From Gemmata sp. (GTDB lineage: Bacteria; Planctomycetota; Planctomycetia; Gemmatales; Gemmataceae): a stretch of 46,138 nt of DNA. Of the stretch, positions 40,324-45,488 are shown piece after piece. The translations under genes were made by a program, and so were the position numbers. The notes under the pieces were generated by a model. The model saw nothing but the letters and a program-made list of their open reading frames with translations, was not told where the DNA came from and searched no databases. The stretch's first letter is position 1, and every line of letters begins with the position of its first letter. The stretch is from contig JANWYJ010000081.1 of the NCBI GenBank assembly GCA_025055115.1, positions 1 to 46,138 on the forward strand. Direction: 5' to 3'.

Positions 40324-40932
40324 TCATCGGGTCGGGTACAACGGCGTGTGCGGCGGTTCAGGGGTCCGGGTGGCGGGCGGTAAGGGCGGTACGGGCGCAC
40401 CGACGCTCGCCGAGTTCGAACCATCTGGTGGAAGGGGGGGCATCGGGTCGGACAATCCAAGTTGCGGCGGCGGCGGAGTATGCGGCGACGGTGGCGGATT
40501 CATCGCACCGCTGACAGGCATGGTGGTGCTGGGCATCGAGGTGGTGGGAAGAGGCTGGACCCCGGGAATGGTAGGAGTCCCTATCGTTCCACCCATTCCA
40601 CCCATTGCCGGTTGCAGGTTGTAATCCACCGGTGGAAAGGCGCCGCCGGACTTATTCGTGTTGAGACCGTCGGTGCCGAAGCGGGTAGTACTCGGGCCGG
40701 CGCTAGGCGGGGTGGAATGGGTTGGTGATTGGCCTTTCACCGTGGCCAATTGGCCTTGCCCGGGTGGTAGTTGCGGCGTTCCGGGTAGCGGTGGGAGTTT
40801 GCCATGATTGTTAGCTTCCTTGGAGTCTTTCCAACGATCCATACTCCAGCAGCCCACCAAATGGGCACAAACCCACACTCCCAACCCAGTGGCCATCCAG
40901 CGAATCCACCGTCTGCGCGATCCTTGCGCCAT
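40324..40932 (-). CDS. Proline-rich lipoprotein, unknown function
   Basis: About 202 residues. The start at 40932 has GAGGGG upstream and gives MAQGSRRRWIRWMATGLGVW then VCAHLVGC, a lipobox with the cysteine near residue 28. The remainder is low-complexity, rich in Pro, Gly, Thr and Ser (for example PPPSPHTPPPPQLGLSDP), with no recognisable domain. It is the last gene of the five-gene minus-strand locus 40324-44159. A low-complexity protein of this sort may be a spacer or cell-envelope component. Open frames in other phases of this GC-rich stretch are artefacts of its composition. Confidence 0.65.
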   Translation of the reverse strand: MAQGSRRRWIRWMATGLGVWVCAHLVGCWSMDRWKDSKEANNHGKLPPLPGTPQLPPGQGQLATVKGQSPTHSTPPSAGPSTTRFGTDGLNTNKSGGAFPPVDYNLQPAMGGMGGTIGTPTIPGVQPLPTTSMPSTTMPVSGAMNPPPSPHTPPPPQLGLSDPMPPLPPDGSNSASVGAPVPPLPPATRTPEPPHTPLYPTR

Positions 40933-41148
40933 AATTCCCCTCCCCCGAACCGGCGGCAACCCCAGTTCACCGCCAACCGCTTCATAGCCTCCATGCCATG
41001 AGGCGGAATTCCTCGCTCGGTTGCGGGTCCATAACGCCCTCACCATCCAAAAACAAGGGGACTTGGGCTGACACCAACAAACAGCTACGCGAGCCGCCGC
41101 AGCGACTCGCGTCCTAGCCATTTTCGCCGACGGTGAGCTGTTTGCCGA

Positions 41149-41436
41149 CTAGCGCATTCCGCCATTGGCGGGGGCCGGGGGGGCCGGGGCGATCGGTCCG
41201 CCTCCGCCGCCGATACCGACACCACCGCGGGCGATCCCTTCCGGGTCTTCCTGGCTCGCCAATTCCCGCGGTAGTGGGAACACCGGATCGGGGGCAATAT
41301 ATTGCGGGAAATGCTGCAAATAATGGCCGCTGGGTAGCGTCATTCCCCCGTACCACGTCTGACAACCGGTGGCTGCGGTCAGTAGCCATCCCAGCAAGGC
41401 CGCGACGCGGGCCAGCCATCGCCGTTGGGTTCGCAT
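41149..41436 (-). CDS. Small lipoprotein, unknown function
   Basis: About 95 residues. The start at 41436 gives MRTQRRWLARVAALLGWLLT ending AATGC, a lipobox; ATG 41454 is an alternative. The mature part begins QTWYGGMTLPSGHYLQHFPQ and YIAPDPVFPLPRELASQED, then a Gly/Pro-rich tail. The short Tyr/Pro-rich pattern after the cysteine is seen in many small planctomycete lipoproteins, but I know no function. It lies between the TPR protein gene and the Pro-rich lipoprotein gene. Confidence 0.7.
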   Translation of the reverse strand: MRTQRRWLARVAALLGWLLTAATGCQTWYGGMTLPSGHYLQHFPQYIAPDPVFPLPRELASQEDPEGIARGGVGIGGGGGPIAPAPPAPANGGMR

Positions 41437-41581
41437 CTCGCCTTTCCCCCTCATCACGAACGACTTCACGCCCCCCGCGTGTTGTCGCCTCTGGGTCAAA
41501 TATCGGTTTTTCAGGTAATCCCGCTGCAGCCGAATTTGACGGAAATAACGGCAGACTGGGAGTACGCCACAAGGCTCGACC

Positions 41582-42778
41582 TCAGCGTATCAAACAACTG
41601 GGCGTTGAGGATTGCAGTTGGCGGATGAGTTCAGTGGCCGCATCGTGGTGCTTCACAGGGTCGAATTCAATGGCCTGCTGAAGGTGATTGATGGCCCGCA
41701 GGGGGCGACCGGTGCTGGCGTAATGTTGGCCCAGGAGGAAGTGAAAGCGGGCAGCGTCCGTAGGCAAGCGCGTGATGGCCTGTTGGAGAATCTGTTCAAC
41801 TTCACCCTGGCGGCGCTGTTGGCGGGCGTTGTAGGCCAAACCCTCGAAGGCTAAGCAGGCCCGTTCGCGGGCGATTGGGTCGACCTCGACCCAGGGGAGA
41901 AGTTGTTCCAAAGCGGTGCGATAGTGGGTATCGCTTTCGCTCCACCGTTGGCGGTCGCGGTTGACTACCGCGAGTAACAGTACGGCGTTTACGTCTGTAG
42001 CTGTCAGCGGTTCTAAAATGCCAGCGGCCTCGTCGAGCTGTTCGAGTTGGATGAAGGCTTCGGCGCGGGCGAGTTTGGCTCGCACCGATGCCGTTGCTGG
42101 GAGTGGGTAGGCCACACTCCGCTGCAAGCGTTCGATTTCCTTGCGCACCAGCATCAGCAGCTCCGCCGGCGGTTTCTGGGCCACAGGTCGTTCACTGCCC
42201 AATTCCACCAAGCCCACCAATTCCCGCTCGGCCTTGACATAGCGGCCGCTCGCCATCCACTCCTCCGCGGCCTGAGTCCGCGCCGGGATGAGGGCTTCGG
42301 CATAAACTGCACACGGGATCACGGCGAAGGCGATAGCCACGGCGCAAACCCCGTTGAAATGCAGCATCGGCTCGGTACGCGGCGGCAAAGCGGCCAGACA
42401 CCACGGTAACACGAAGACAACAGCCAGTAACACACGCAGGACAAGCAACGGGCCAGAACCGAAAGTCCCTGCGGCGATCGCTTCAGCCAAACCCGCGCTG
42501 ATCGCCGCGACCAAACCCACCATTCCCACCCCAGACCCCAGCCACACGGTCGCTGCCACTTCATTCACCGCGGGTAGCGACCGCAGCCAGCGCGCGAGCA
42601 CGAACCCCAATGGTAGAGCGGTGATCAAATGGCTGACCAGAAGTCGCAGCCACGCGAACGGGGCGGCCGTTAGCCCCCCCTCCCAGCGCTCGCTGCCCGC
42701 TGCCCAATGGAGTCCCAAAGCCGGTACCGCCACCGCTAGTACCACAGCGATGATGGCGCGGCATTCACCCCCCGTCAT
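41582..42778 (-). CDS. Polytopic membrane protein with TPR-like C-terminus
   Basis: About 398 residues. The start ATG at 42778-42776 overlaps the stop of the preceding gene (ATGA, 42775-42778), a classic translational-coupling arrangement. The long open frame further upstream is only the shadow of that gene. The N-terminal 180 residues carry about five membrane helices (IIAVVLAVAVPALGLHW, HLITALPLGFVLARWL, VWLGSGVGMVGLVAAISAGL, LLVLRVLLAVVFVLPWCLAA and VAIAFAVIPCAVYAEAL). The C-terminal half is TPR-like: AKLARAEAFIQLEQLDEAAG, DTHYRTALEQLLP, HFLLGQHYASTGRPLRAINH and LQQAIEFDPVKHHDAATEL. It probably assembles a complex at the membrane. Family not recognised. Confidence 0.78.
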   Translation of the reverse strand: MTGGECRAIIAVVLAVAVPALGLHWAAGSERWEGGLTAAPFAWLRLLVSHLITALPLGFVLARWLRSLPAVNEVAATVWLGSGVGMVGLVAAISAGLAEAIAAGTFGSGPLLVLRVLLAVVFVLPWCLAALPPRTEPMLHFNGVCAVAIAFAVIPCAVYAEALIPARTQAAEEWMASGRYVKAERELVGLVELGSERPVAQKPPAELLMLVRKEIERLQRSVAYPLPATASVRAKLARAEAFIQLEQLDEAAGILEPLTATDVNAVLLLAVVNRDRQRWSESDTHYRTALEQLLPWVEVDPIARERACLAFEGLAYNARQQRRQGEVEQILQQAITRLPTDAARFHFLLGQHYASTGRPLRAINHLQQAIEFDPVKHHDAATELIRQLQSSTPSCLIR

Positions 42779-43755
42779 GAGCCTGCCACTCCCAACGCCC
42801 TGGCTGTTTCGGGCCGGCGAAGTTTCCAGATCATGCCGTCGAAGGCGTAGTGAACGAAAGCGGCCCAAAGGTTCAGACCTTGCCAGAGAACGAATACACC
42901 ACTCTCCTTCCGCGAGGCCCACGCCCCCAACGATCCGAGGATGACGACATACACCGTCAGGAAGAACAGCCAGTACTTCGCCAAGCGGCGGAATGCCCCG
43001 GCACTCCCGACGCTTTGCCGCCGCTGCGCGTAATGCGTTACAATCGCCAGATATTCCACCGCATGAAACATCGAACCAGCCGCGGCCAGCATCACGACCC
43101 CCCGAACCCAGCCCCATTGCAAGCTGAGGATGAAAGCCATGTACAATAGACAAACACTGCTGAGATAGACCATTTTGCCTGTCCGCTCGACGGTGAACCC
43201 GACAATATTGGACGCCAGCAACGCGAGCGGGATGAGCAAGATGGTGAAGTCGAGCGCTTGCAGCCACAGAAAATAGGCGGGTTCAGCTTCTACCCACCCG
43301 GTGGCCCAACCGGCCGCTCGTAGTGCCCCATAAGTGACGAAACCGCGAAGCCCCCAGCGTTCCAGAAATTCCGATCCCCCCCCGACTTTCCGCGAATACA
43401 TGCGTACAACGCCCGCATGCTGGCTGGCGAAATGCCATCCATTCCAAATGTAGTCGATGAGAGCTAGGCACAGAAACGCTCCGGTGCCAAGAAAGGCACC
43501 GATGACCACCGCAGCCGCCAACACGGCGACTGCGAGTAGCCGTTGGGTGTGATCACCGCGGCGGTCTGGGTCCATTAGCACCAAGATGAGAGTGATCCAG
43601 CGATGGGGGAGGGTCAGGAAGTAGATTTGCCAGAAGTCGATAACGGTGTCGGTGTCGGTGGTGAAACCGGGCAACAGGAGCAGAAGCCAACCGAGGTTCG
43701 CAAGGAACAATAAATCGAAAACCGGGGAGACGATCCACCCCCGGTTCAACTCCAT
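42775..43755 (-). CDS. Polytopic membrane protein with conserved-looking histidines
   Basis: About 326 residues and eight to nine membrane helices. Start at 43755 (MELNRGWIVSPVFDLLFLAN), 14 bp after the preceding lipoprotein stop; a frame from 43827 would overlap that gene. Helix-associated histidines occur in FLTLPHRWITLILV, YIWNGWHFASQHAGVVRMYS, FHAVEYLAIVTHYAQRRQ and WAAFVHYAFDGMIWKLRRPE. The pattern of several membrane-embedded His residues recalls iron enzymes of the membrane desaturase/hydroxylase kind and the Brp/Blh carotenoid oxygenases. I cannot assign it to either by eye. It is translationally coupled to the TPR membrane protein gene. Confidence 0.75.
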   Translation of the reverse strand: MELNRGWIVSPVFDLLFLANLGWLLLLLPGFTTDTDTVIDFWQIYFLTLPHRWITLILVLMDPDRRGDHTQRLLAVAVLAAAVVIGAFLGTGAFLCLALIDYIWNGWHFASQHAGVVRMYSRKVGGGSEFLERWGLRGFVTYGALRAAGWATGWVEAEPAYFLWLQALDFTILLIPLALLASNIVGFTVERTGKMVYLSSVCLLYMAFILSLQWGWVRGVVMLAAAGSMFHAVEYLAIVTHYAQRRQSVGSAGAFRRLAKYWLFFLTVYVVILGSLGAWASRKESGVFVLWQGLNLWAAFVHYAFDGMIWKLRRPETARALGVAGS

Positions 43756-43769
43756 GCCGACAAGCGGTG

Positions 43770-44159
43770 TCACGGCAGCGGCGCGGCTTGGATTTTCCAC
43801 TTGTTCCCGACCTTCACGAAGCTCCACTCGACCGTCCCTTGGTCGGTGCCCTCATCGGTGCGCACCTTCACGGTAGCCGTCGCTTTATCACCGTTGACCG
43901 TCGGCGACCCGGACAGGTCGAAGTTGTAAGTATCGTACTTGCGCCAATCTTTTGCAGGTTGGGCAAACAGTTCACCGGCCCGTTTGGGGTTGGCTTTGTA
44001 CTCGTTGAAATCCTCAATCAGAACCGCAATCGCTTTCGCATCATCAGAGTTGTAGCTGGGTGCGATCGGCGTTTCGGGGTTGCTACCGCAACTGCACAAA
44101 CCCACAGCCACTAGCCAGCCACAATTCATCACTAGCCAACGCAACAACGGTCGCATCAT
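43770..44159 (-). CDS. Lipoprotein with small beta-rich domain
   Basis: 129 residues. Signal and lipobox: MMRPLLRWLVMNCGWLVAVG then LCSCGSNPE. The mature domain (AIAVLIEDFNEYKANPKRAG, then VNGDKATATVKVRTDEGTDQ and VEWSFVKVGNKWKIQAAPLP) has a helix-plus-curved-sheet pattern ending in a K-W-K-I strand, as in NTF2-like or DUF4878-type small lipoproteins. Ligand unknown. It is first in the minus-strand locus 44159-40324 and is followed after 14 bp by the membrane protein gene. Confidence 0.78.
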   Translation of the reverse strand: MMRPLLRWLVMNCGWLVAVGLCSCGSNPETPIAPSYNSDDAKAIAVLIEDFNEYKANPKRAGELFAQPAKDWRKYDTYNFDLSGSPTVNGDKATATVKVRTDEGTDQGTVEWSFVKVGNKWKIQAAPLP

Positions 44160-44273
44160 CGATGGTGATCCCCGAAATCGCAGGAAGCAGACAATGGCAG
44201 GACTTCAGAAGCCACGCTCCGTGCGAAGGCGTCAGCTGATCGCCGCGCACGGAGCGTGTTGATGACGGAACAA

Positions 44274-45488
44274 TCAGTCGAAGTTGACCACTTCACCACC
44301 GGCCCGGGTCCCGAGGGCTTGCCATGTGGTCACATTGATTGTGTCGCGGAAAAACCGCACGCTACCATCCGCCATCGCTGCATTCACACCACCGGAGTGC
44401 TTGCTGCGGGCAGCGGCGAAGGTATCCCCGTTGGTTTGGTTTTGCACACAGGCTCGCCGATACGGATCCGTCGTGGGGATCGTCGGTTCACACGAAATGA
44501 TAGTATCGGGTGTGGAGCTATTGGGAGCTGTCAGGGTCGTAAAGACGTTACCCCCCGCGGCGGGCAATAACACACAACCGCGCATATCAAGATTACGGCC
44601 TTCCGGACTCGACGACGTAGCGTCCAGCGTAACGACATCATAAGGTAGCACTTCACTGAACATGATGGTGTTCGATGAACCATCGGTAATCTGGTCCACT
44701 TTCACACCACGACCCGTACCCATCCGCAATTGCCACGGCCACTTGGCGACCTCTACCAAACCAAAGACGCCGCTGGTTGGCGTTGGCGAGAAGGACGCGG
44801 CCGAACCGAACGTTCCACCGCCCCAGCAACCGACGTAATTGCCCTTCATGAGGTTTTCCAAACTGAGATTATTAAAATGCACATTGGGATTGTGGGCTGA
44901 ACTGGGGCAATAGAGGATGCGGGTGCTGAGTGTGGATTGGAAGTCGATATCCGGTCGGCGTTGCGGAACTCCATCCCAGTTATCAGCGGGATTAGATTCA
45001 GCACCCCCCGAGCCATCAGAAAGGAAGGCTGGCTCAATGCGAGCCACCAGAGGCGTTTGCTCGATTTCGGCCAAGATATGCAGCGGCCAACTGGGGCCAT
45101 AACAACGGGTGCCAAAACGGGGGGGGTTCGAGGTACTGGTGCTGTTGCCCCACACCACCCACAGTGGCGGCTCACCCGGAGCAGGAGTGCCACTGCCGGG
45201 AACTGGATTGGGATTGCCACCCGAATCAAACGGCGCGTTCGATTGCAAAGCCTGCAAAATCCGCGGCAAACCCGGCGGGAAAGAACCATGGGTGCTGTGA
45301 TAGTTGTGCGCAGCCAACGCCAACTGCTTCAGATTGTTTTGGCAACGCATCCGAGCTGCCGCTTCGCGGACTTTTTGCACTGCCGGAAGCAACAAGCCAA
45401 TCAAGATCGCGATAATCGCAATCACCACCAACAACTCAATCAATGTAAAACCGCGAAACCGATTCGAGCGCTCTTGGCTGTCGGCCAT
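44274..45488 (-). CDS. DUF1559 domain protein with prepilin-type N-terminus
   Basis: 404 residues. Start ATG 45488 is preceded by GGTGGAGG. The type IV pilin-like processing site and helix are clear: [20 protein letters not shown] (cleavage after the Gly of RG, methylated Phe), then [20 protein letters not shown] and [20 protein letters not shown]. The DUF1559 domain ends with the usual [15 protein letters not shown] motif. Planctomycetes carry dozens of such proteins, believed to be exported and assembled like pseudopilins; their substrates are unknown. It is preceded by an inverted repeat at 45605-45631. Confidence 0.94.

Follow-up and report, generated by a model that had tools for sequence, protein, structure and literature searches.

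Within a 46,138-nt stretch of a Gemmata sp. genome (assembly GCA_025055115.1, contig JANWYJ010000081.1; hereafter the window, to which all coordinates refer), we identified a conserved four-gene unit at positions 45488-41582 of the minus strand, the strand that carries all genes of this locus. The unit consists of a DUF1559 pseudopilin (44274..45488), a small lipoprotein whose conserved end reads W..WKI..APLP (43770..44159), a membrane protein read as having 10 helices with six invariant residues (42775..43755), and a second membrane protein combining 5 predicted membrane helices with a tetratricopeptide repeat (TPR) domain and an invariant cysteine, C395, near its C terminus (41582..42778). 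The last three were assigned the names P0001, P0002, and P0003. The unit is well supported and includes two undescribed membrane protein families.

A first-pass annotation of the same DNA had grouped P0001-P0003 with two further genes, P0004 and P0005, as a candidate for an undescribed planctomycete envelope complex. Its layout was accurate: five open reading frames run in one direction from 44159 to 40324, P0001, P0004, and P0005 each display a lipobox-like cysteine when read by eye, P0002 is polytopic with conserved histidines, and the C-terminal repeats of P0003 match PF07719 (33.9 bits, cut-off 27). P0002 and P0003 share an ATGA overlap at 42775-42778, and the gap between P0001 and P0002 is indeed 14 bp (43756-43769), although only if the P0002 ATG at 43755 is used, since an alternative GTG start at 43827 would overlap P0001. 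The absence of any recognizable function held for P0002, P0004, and P0005, none of which matched a Pfam or NCBIfam family at E ≤ 1, while P0003 displayed only TPRs and P0001 only sub-threshold matches. The proposal of an undescribed complex was a fair guess for P0001-P0003 but omitted the pseudopilin: the five genes are two neighboring units, a P0001-P0003 block and P0004/P0005, and the former starts one gene earlier, with the pseudopilin, outside the region first considered.

Conservation of the unit was assessed over 39 P0002 loci, window included. A first search for P0002 relatives yielded 15 loci, all planctomycete, and later searches were confined to planctomycetes, plus a plasmid collection. 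The locus block spans four families of the class, with P0001 relatives at 25 and P0003 relatives at 30 of the 39 loci, and the order of these three genes is thus found beyond this one genome. The distribution of P0002 is patchy, with 30 of 99 genomes encoding it (own included) and, within the genus, 10 of 18 other genomes. Among the 35 loci with enough flanking sequence (L003, L006, L013, and L069 were excluded because a contig end lay too near), 29 encode a same-strand pseudopilin, recognized by its N-terminal motif, at most 1.7 kb from P0002: close upstream in 25, 1.7 kb upstream in L015, and after P0003 in L054-L056. Clustering of neighboring genes likewise revealed one family adjoining P0001 in most loci, to which the window gene 44274-45488 belongs, and added L050 (pseudopilin upstream) and L016 (downstream), bringing the association to 31/35; the four loci without a pseudopilin next to P0002 are the divergent L065-L068. 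Given a chance of about 0.02 per locus (59 DUF1559 matches in the 4.93 Mb of this genome, a few genes being counted twice), 31/35 is far beyond binomial expectation, although this value, like the Fisher test below, is overstated because the loci are not independent (L011/L012 and L054/L055 are near-copies, and L006/L013 derive from one genome). All five loci later recovered by a profile search also encode a same-strand pseudopilin, upstream in L149, L150, and L152, about 1.7 kb upstream in L151, and after P0003 in L148. In L054-L056 and L148, gene order is hence altered while the partners are retained.

P0002 and P0003 also co-occur across genomes. Strong P0003 matches (E below 1e-20) were obtained in 26/26 genomes with a core P0002, in 3 others, and in none of the remaining 70 (Fisher P = 7e-21 over 99 genomes); this cut-off was our own choice from the match list, and the co-occurrence depends on it, because TPRs are common and all 99 genomes match the P0003 profile at E ≤ 0.001. 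The match in G006 is a fragment on another contig, and the four genomes with a divergent P0002 have no strong match. The three genomes with a strong P0003 match and no P0002 (G001, G052, and G002) show partial matches, interrupted by a stop codon in G002. Pairwise identity in P0002 tracks that in DUF1559 (Spearman 0.65), P0003 (0.69), and P0001 (0.76), with 0/999 permutations reaching each value, but these correlations were computed without a species tree and common descent alone could also produce them. Two loci look like degraded or misread copies: in the single-contig genome G002 (G002:C1:3497179-3497599), the P0003 relative is broken in two and contains a stop codon, resembling a decayed unit, and in the one-contig genome G008, P0002 of L050 (G008:C1:3895198-3896164) is split over two frames by a frameshift or a sequencing error.

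The gene that opens the unit belongs to the planctomycete DUF1559/SBP_bac_10 pseudopilins, passing the Pfam cut-offs for both PF07596 (136.6 bits, cut-off 23.3) and the N-terminal methylation motif PF07963 (34.4 bits, cut-off 21.2), and the HX9DG motif can be read near its C terminus. By sequence, however, the unit pseudopilins form a branch of their own with diagnostic residues, and differ from DUF1559 pseudopilins at large in traveling with P0002-P0003. We built a quick tree from 29 unit pseudopilins and 35 other sequences, truncating the rows at 330 residues; the paralogues sit on long branches. In this tree, the unit members required 2 label changes compared to a mean of 21.3 after shuffling. 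The 35 others comprised 12 paralogues from other loci and 23 rows from this genome, the latter being those of the 30 best of 59 matches that passed a motif filter (two are identical; the window's own gene, L135, was dropped). The sole "other" inside the unit branch, L058_3093, lies beside cluster-5 genes in a genome that carries P0002. Eighteen positions are diagnostic, i.e., kept in at least 26/29 unit pseudopilins and at most 10/35 others, including E201 (29/29 vs 1/35), D291 (29 vs 2), R293 (29 vs 4), and the cysteine C323 (29/29 vs 5/35). For a second cysteine, C337, the counts are 29 vs 14. These five residues are all present in 5/5 pseudopilins outside the defining set.

Few protein families have expanded as far in planctomycetes as the DUF1559 pseudopilins. 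The accessible parts of published accounts list 68 paralogues in Planctopirus limnophila, two of them essential (PMC10632474), and 74 genes in Rhodopirellula baltica, some stress-responsive (PMC2754498). For Tuwongella immobilis, the accessible text of a proteomics account places DUF1559 proteins in detergent- and SDS-soluble fractions, reports that the neighbors of their genes frequently encode type I or II signal peptides, and names GspO/PilD as the prepilin peptidase recognizing the N_methyl signal; this same text does not mention a pairing with P0002-P0003 (PMC8567305). In the accessible literature on DUF1559, SBP_bac_10, and planctomycete pili, membrane, and TPR proteins, searched mostly outside subscription journals, we found neither a description of this unit nor a role for DUF1559 pseudopilins, which are reported there as a large but functionally uncharacterized family. 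The unit provides a concrete entry into this family, with four genes, predicted partners, and invariant residues to mutate.

The predicted structure of P0002 (pLDDT 91, pTM 0.89) was read as ten membrane helices. Six residues, H51, H108, Q112, H231, H302, and D306, are invariant over 31 P0002 sequences sharing 16-54% identity with the first, and the four histidines fall on helices 2, 4, 8, and 10, which run in the same direction in the proposed topology. The next Lys or Arg follows 10, 14, and 9 residues after H108, H231, and H302, respectively, and D62 comes 11 after H51. R52, directly beside H51, is kept in 33/34 relatives, and D14, D62, D101, and D169 are further conserved charged residues in or near helices. 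Loop charges across 34 relatives mostly follow the positive-inside rule, with both termini cytoplasmic (N-in/C-in). In this model, the invariant residues may converge on one putative cofactor site, or on two haem sites at like depth.

Several known families resemble P0002 in outline. Brp/Blh beta-carotene 15,15'-dioxygenases (PF15461) are also multi-helix proteins with several conserved histidines, four of which form an iron site, but they carry other motifs, and the Blh gene of this genome lies elsewhere; with no family match, and hhalign probabilities of 3.7 and 0.1 against 8 planctomycete members, we rejected this assignment. Haem A synthase CtaA/COX15 (PF02628) is likewise polytopic and carries one histidine on each of four helices, but has 8 helices instead of 10, and was rejected on the same grounds (no family match; probabilities of 0.3 and 0.1 against 16 planctomycete members, whose rows kept an untrimmed N-terminal frame). 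Microbial rhodopsins head the VIA-align matches (Z 7.2, rmsd 5.4, 173 aligned residues); this Z lies within the range given for unrelated helical bundles, and we do not infer kinship from it. A PDB sequence search returned one match, at E 3.4. The lipocone superfamily, which the accessible text describes as surrounding a pocket with His, Glu, and Asp from consecutive core helices (PMC12419801), was set beside P0002 by description only, the conserved set of the latter being 4 His, Gln, and Asp. Separately, in this genome, a microbial rhodopsin match directly precedes the Brp/Blh match (G000:C48:8637-10215; L196, L106), and the frame beside this pair reads by eye like a lycopene cyclase; a Gemmata-like planctomycete would then carry a cluster for retinal and rhodopsin.

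Beyond the core loci, a phylum-wide profile search placed the P0002 superfamily in 51/294 genomes (own included), many of these members being weak, divergent, and in other gene contexts; in the plasmid collection, neither P0002 nor the L084 domain had relatives. In some of these proteins, TPRs and a P0002-like domain form a single-chain fusion (L084, L086, and L091), and in L153, a single frame matches both the P0002 and P0003 profiles, the P0003 part being mostly TPR. With the superfamily comes a membrane protein family that had no annotation and that carries a putative cofactor site. Comparison of the N- and C-terminal halves of P0002 aligned the H108 and H231 regions with a probability of 0.3 in our first alignment (A1) and 7 in a broader one (A4), which is only a hint of an internal duplication. 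A4 draws 12 rows from the 34 in A1, adds 19 of the 30 loci of the phylum search, and leaves out L070-L078, L085, and L093 as near-copies or partial, along with weaker matches that had no locus; some rows of A1-A3 begin at a BLAST-inferred residue rather than at Met.

P0003 matches two further TPR families above their Pfam cut-offs (PF14559, 25.2 bits, cut-off 25; PF13428, 23.7 bits, cut-off 23.5), and its model (pLDDT 94) has TPR proteins as best Foldseek matches. With five predicted helices and the observed loop charges, the TPR domain would be periplasmic. The cysteine near the C terminus is present in 30/30 relatives, in L060, and in 5/5 loci outside the profile, although not in the L153 fusion. 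A pseudopilin beside a lipoprotein and a TPR protein is reminiscent of type IV pilus and type II secretion accessory genes, which include the TPR lipoproteins PilW/PilF and Tgl, and the P0003 repeats do match PilW weakly (TIGR02521, 18.1 bits vs a cut-off of 154). Unlike these systems, however, the TPRs of the unit share a chain with five membrane helices, and their partner is a 10-helix, multi-histidine protein.

P0001, the lipoprotein, retains its lipobox cysteine in 25/25 aligned relatives. Its best sub-threshold matches are DUF4878 (PF12870, 16.6 bits vs 24.1) and Rv0361_Cterm (23.1 vs 37), and 4/25 relatives match DUF4878 at E ≤ 1 (best 0.001). We did not retain an assignment as a DUF4878/NTF2-like lipoprotein, the PF12870 cut-off not being reached, and the six matches of a PDB sequence search (E 0.057-0.75) were not convincing. 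Between the pseudopilin and P0001, the minus strand carries an inverted repeat with a 13-bp perfect stem (44213..44258). Perfect stems of 7 or more occur at this position in 13/22 loci, in a count made without control for stem length, with sequences that are unlike each other (e.g., window vs L002), while eight loci have no stem and in L009 the genes are nearly gapless. Fold z-scores against simple shuffles range from -6.0 to +1.1, with the window at -2.3. Such a hairpin would fit a higher output of the pilin than of the downstream products.

The unit itself is real and conserved, and from its components we infer a mechanism that we propose tentatively, at somewhat less than an even chance, namely that P0002 and P0003 form a cofactor-dependent complex acting on the dedicated pseudopilin. 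P0002 and P0003 would most likely form one inner-membrane complex, in which P0002 would bind a transition metal or haem through its four histidines, located at similar depth on four helices. The pseudopilin would be processed by the cell's prepilin peptidase, and P0003 would extend into the periplasm a TPR arm, with its invariant cysteine near the C terminus, on which the pseudopilin and/or the lipoprotein could dock. The P0002 site might then modify the docked pseudopilin covalently, or carry out a step of its installation that is redox-based or metal-dependent. The invariant P0003 cysteine and the pseudopilin pair C323/C337 would allow the two proteins to form a thiol link. A broader version is possible but less probable: P0002 would found an undescribed planctomycete superfamily of intramembrane four-histidine (metal or haem) enzymes, of which the core subfamily, together with the TPR-Cys arm, would be a dedicated pseudopilin modification or installation machine, perhaps working via such a thiol link to C323/C337. 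If true, the dozens of DUF1559 proteins in each genome would include at least one with a membrane enzyme of its own.

Beyond the relatedness of the loci and the dependence of the co-occurrence on a strict cut-off, several observations weigh against this proposed mechanism. Metal or haem binding and activity of P0002 are putative, being deduced from its sequence, and no family or fold match indicates its function; among PDB and viral structures, Foldseek found nothing at E ≤ 0.001. The topology is uncertain at TM6-8, because the TM6-7 and TM7-8 loops have equal charges (K+R 1.0 and D+E 0.4 each). The divergent loci L065-L068 lack P0003 and any pseudopilin next to P0002 (in L068, DUF1559 genes lie 2.9 kb or more downstream), and no pseudopilin was tagged near the TPR fusions. 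Since these four loci and the weaker superfamily members stand in other contexts, the P0002 fold also works without this partner. Finally, in some loci (e.g., L061), a different lipoprotein-like gene (cluster 7), encoding about 175 residues, takes the position of P0001 between the pseudopilin and P0002, as seen in several distant Gemmataceae; the L061 representative (L061:5332-5859) has no Pfam match at E ≤ 0.01.

The weightiest alternative, although an unlikely one, is a redox role, in which P0002 would be a di-haem b-type cytochrome (axial pairs H51/H108 and H231/H302) connecting the quinone pool with periplasmic proteins, and the unit part of a planctomycete redox system. One invariant histidine on each of four helices would fit this role, this being also the layout of haem A synthase. 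In addition, genes for PSCyt2/PSD1, cytochrome c (PSCyt1), and PQQ-type propellers lie directly upstream in L010 and L060, and the same single-linkage clusters occur in like order in L005, L008, L012, L047, and L050, by cluster only. Against a di-haem cytochrome stand the CtaA profile comparison described above, the lack of any cytochrome b family match for P0002, and the presence of cytochrome-type genes upstream in only roughly 8/39 loci, with five or six of these beyond L010 and L060 resting on cluster membership. Moreover, the invariant Q112 and D306, each four residues after a histidine (H108 and H302), better fit a metal site. As a separate observation, PSCyt2/PSD1, cytochrome c with WD40, and PQQ-propeller genes follow in this order in both L010 (3-4198) and L060 (4392-8998), and an extended seven-gene form of the unit may exist.

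Less likely still, P0002-P0003 could be a transporter or a lipid or ion conduit, with the histidines gating or relaying protons and the pseudopilin merely sharing the transcript. Ten helices with conserved charged residues (D14, R52, D62, D101, and D169) would suit such a conduit, and transporters and 7-helix receptors are among the weak P0002 fold matches, but these matches are insignificant, and the dedicated pseudopilin branch with its diagnostic residues argues against a passenger role.

The pseudopilin could also be a co-inherited neighbor without functional coupling, operon partners persisting by descent. The correlated identities of P0002 and DUF1559 would be expected from descent alone too, but the association outlasts both the rearranged order of L054-L056 and L148 and the replacement of the lipoprotein between pseudopilin and P0002, and occurs against a patchy distribution of P0002. 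We consider mere co-inheritance improbable.

A single envelope complex of all five genes first grouped together is very improbable: they are co-oriented both in the window and in the sister genome (L002/G017), but P0004 (41149..41454) and P0005 (40324..40932) accompany the unit, among the 39 loci, only in these two, and their relatives sit elsewhere in the other genomes examined. We interpret P0004 and P0005 as another unit that merely follows P0003 here. P0004, a small lipoprotein, has relatives in 55/59 genomes and comes after P0003 only in the window and L002; in G008, G010, G012, and G013, which encode both, its relatives are separated from P0002 by 150 kb or more, or are on a different contig. 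P0005, a Pro-rich lipoprotein, has relatives in 12/59 genomes, although weak matches may be compositional because of its proline content. Besides the window and G017, P0005 lies beside a P0004 relative in 7/10 genomes (G001, G002, G004, G007, G009, G011, and G012) and apart from it in 3/10 (G008, G010, and G018). Terminator-like sites are not enriched in the window (8 vs 7.2 in shuffles). Between P0004 and P0005, on their strand, lies a GC-rich hairpin of 11 pairs (41087-41112).

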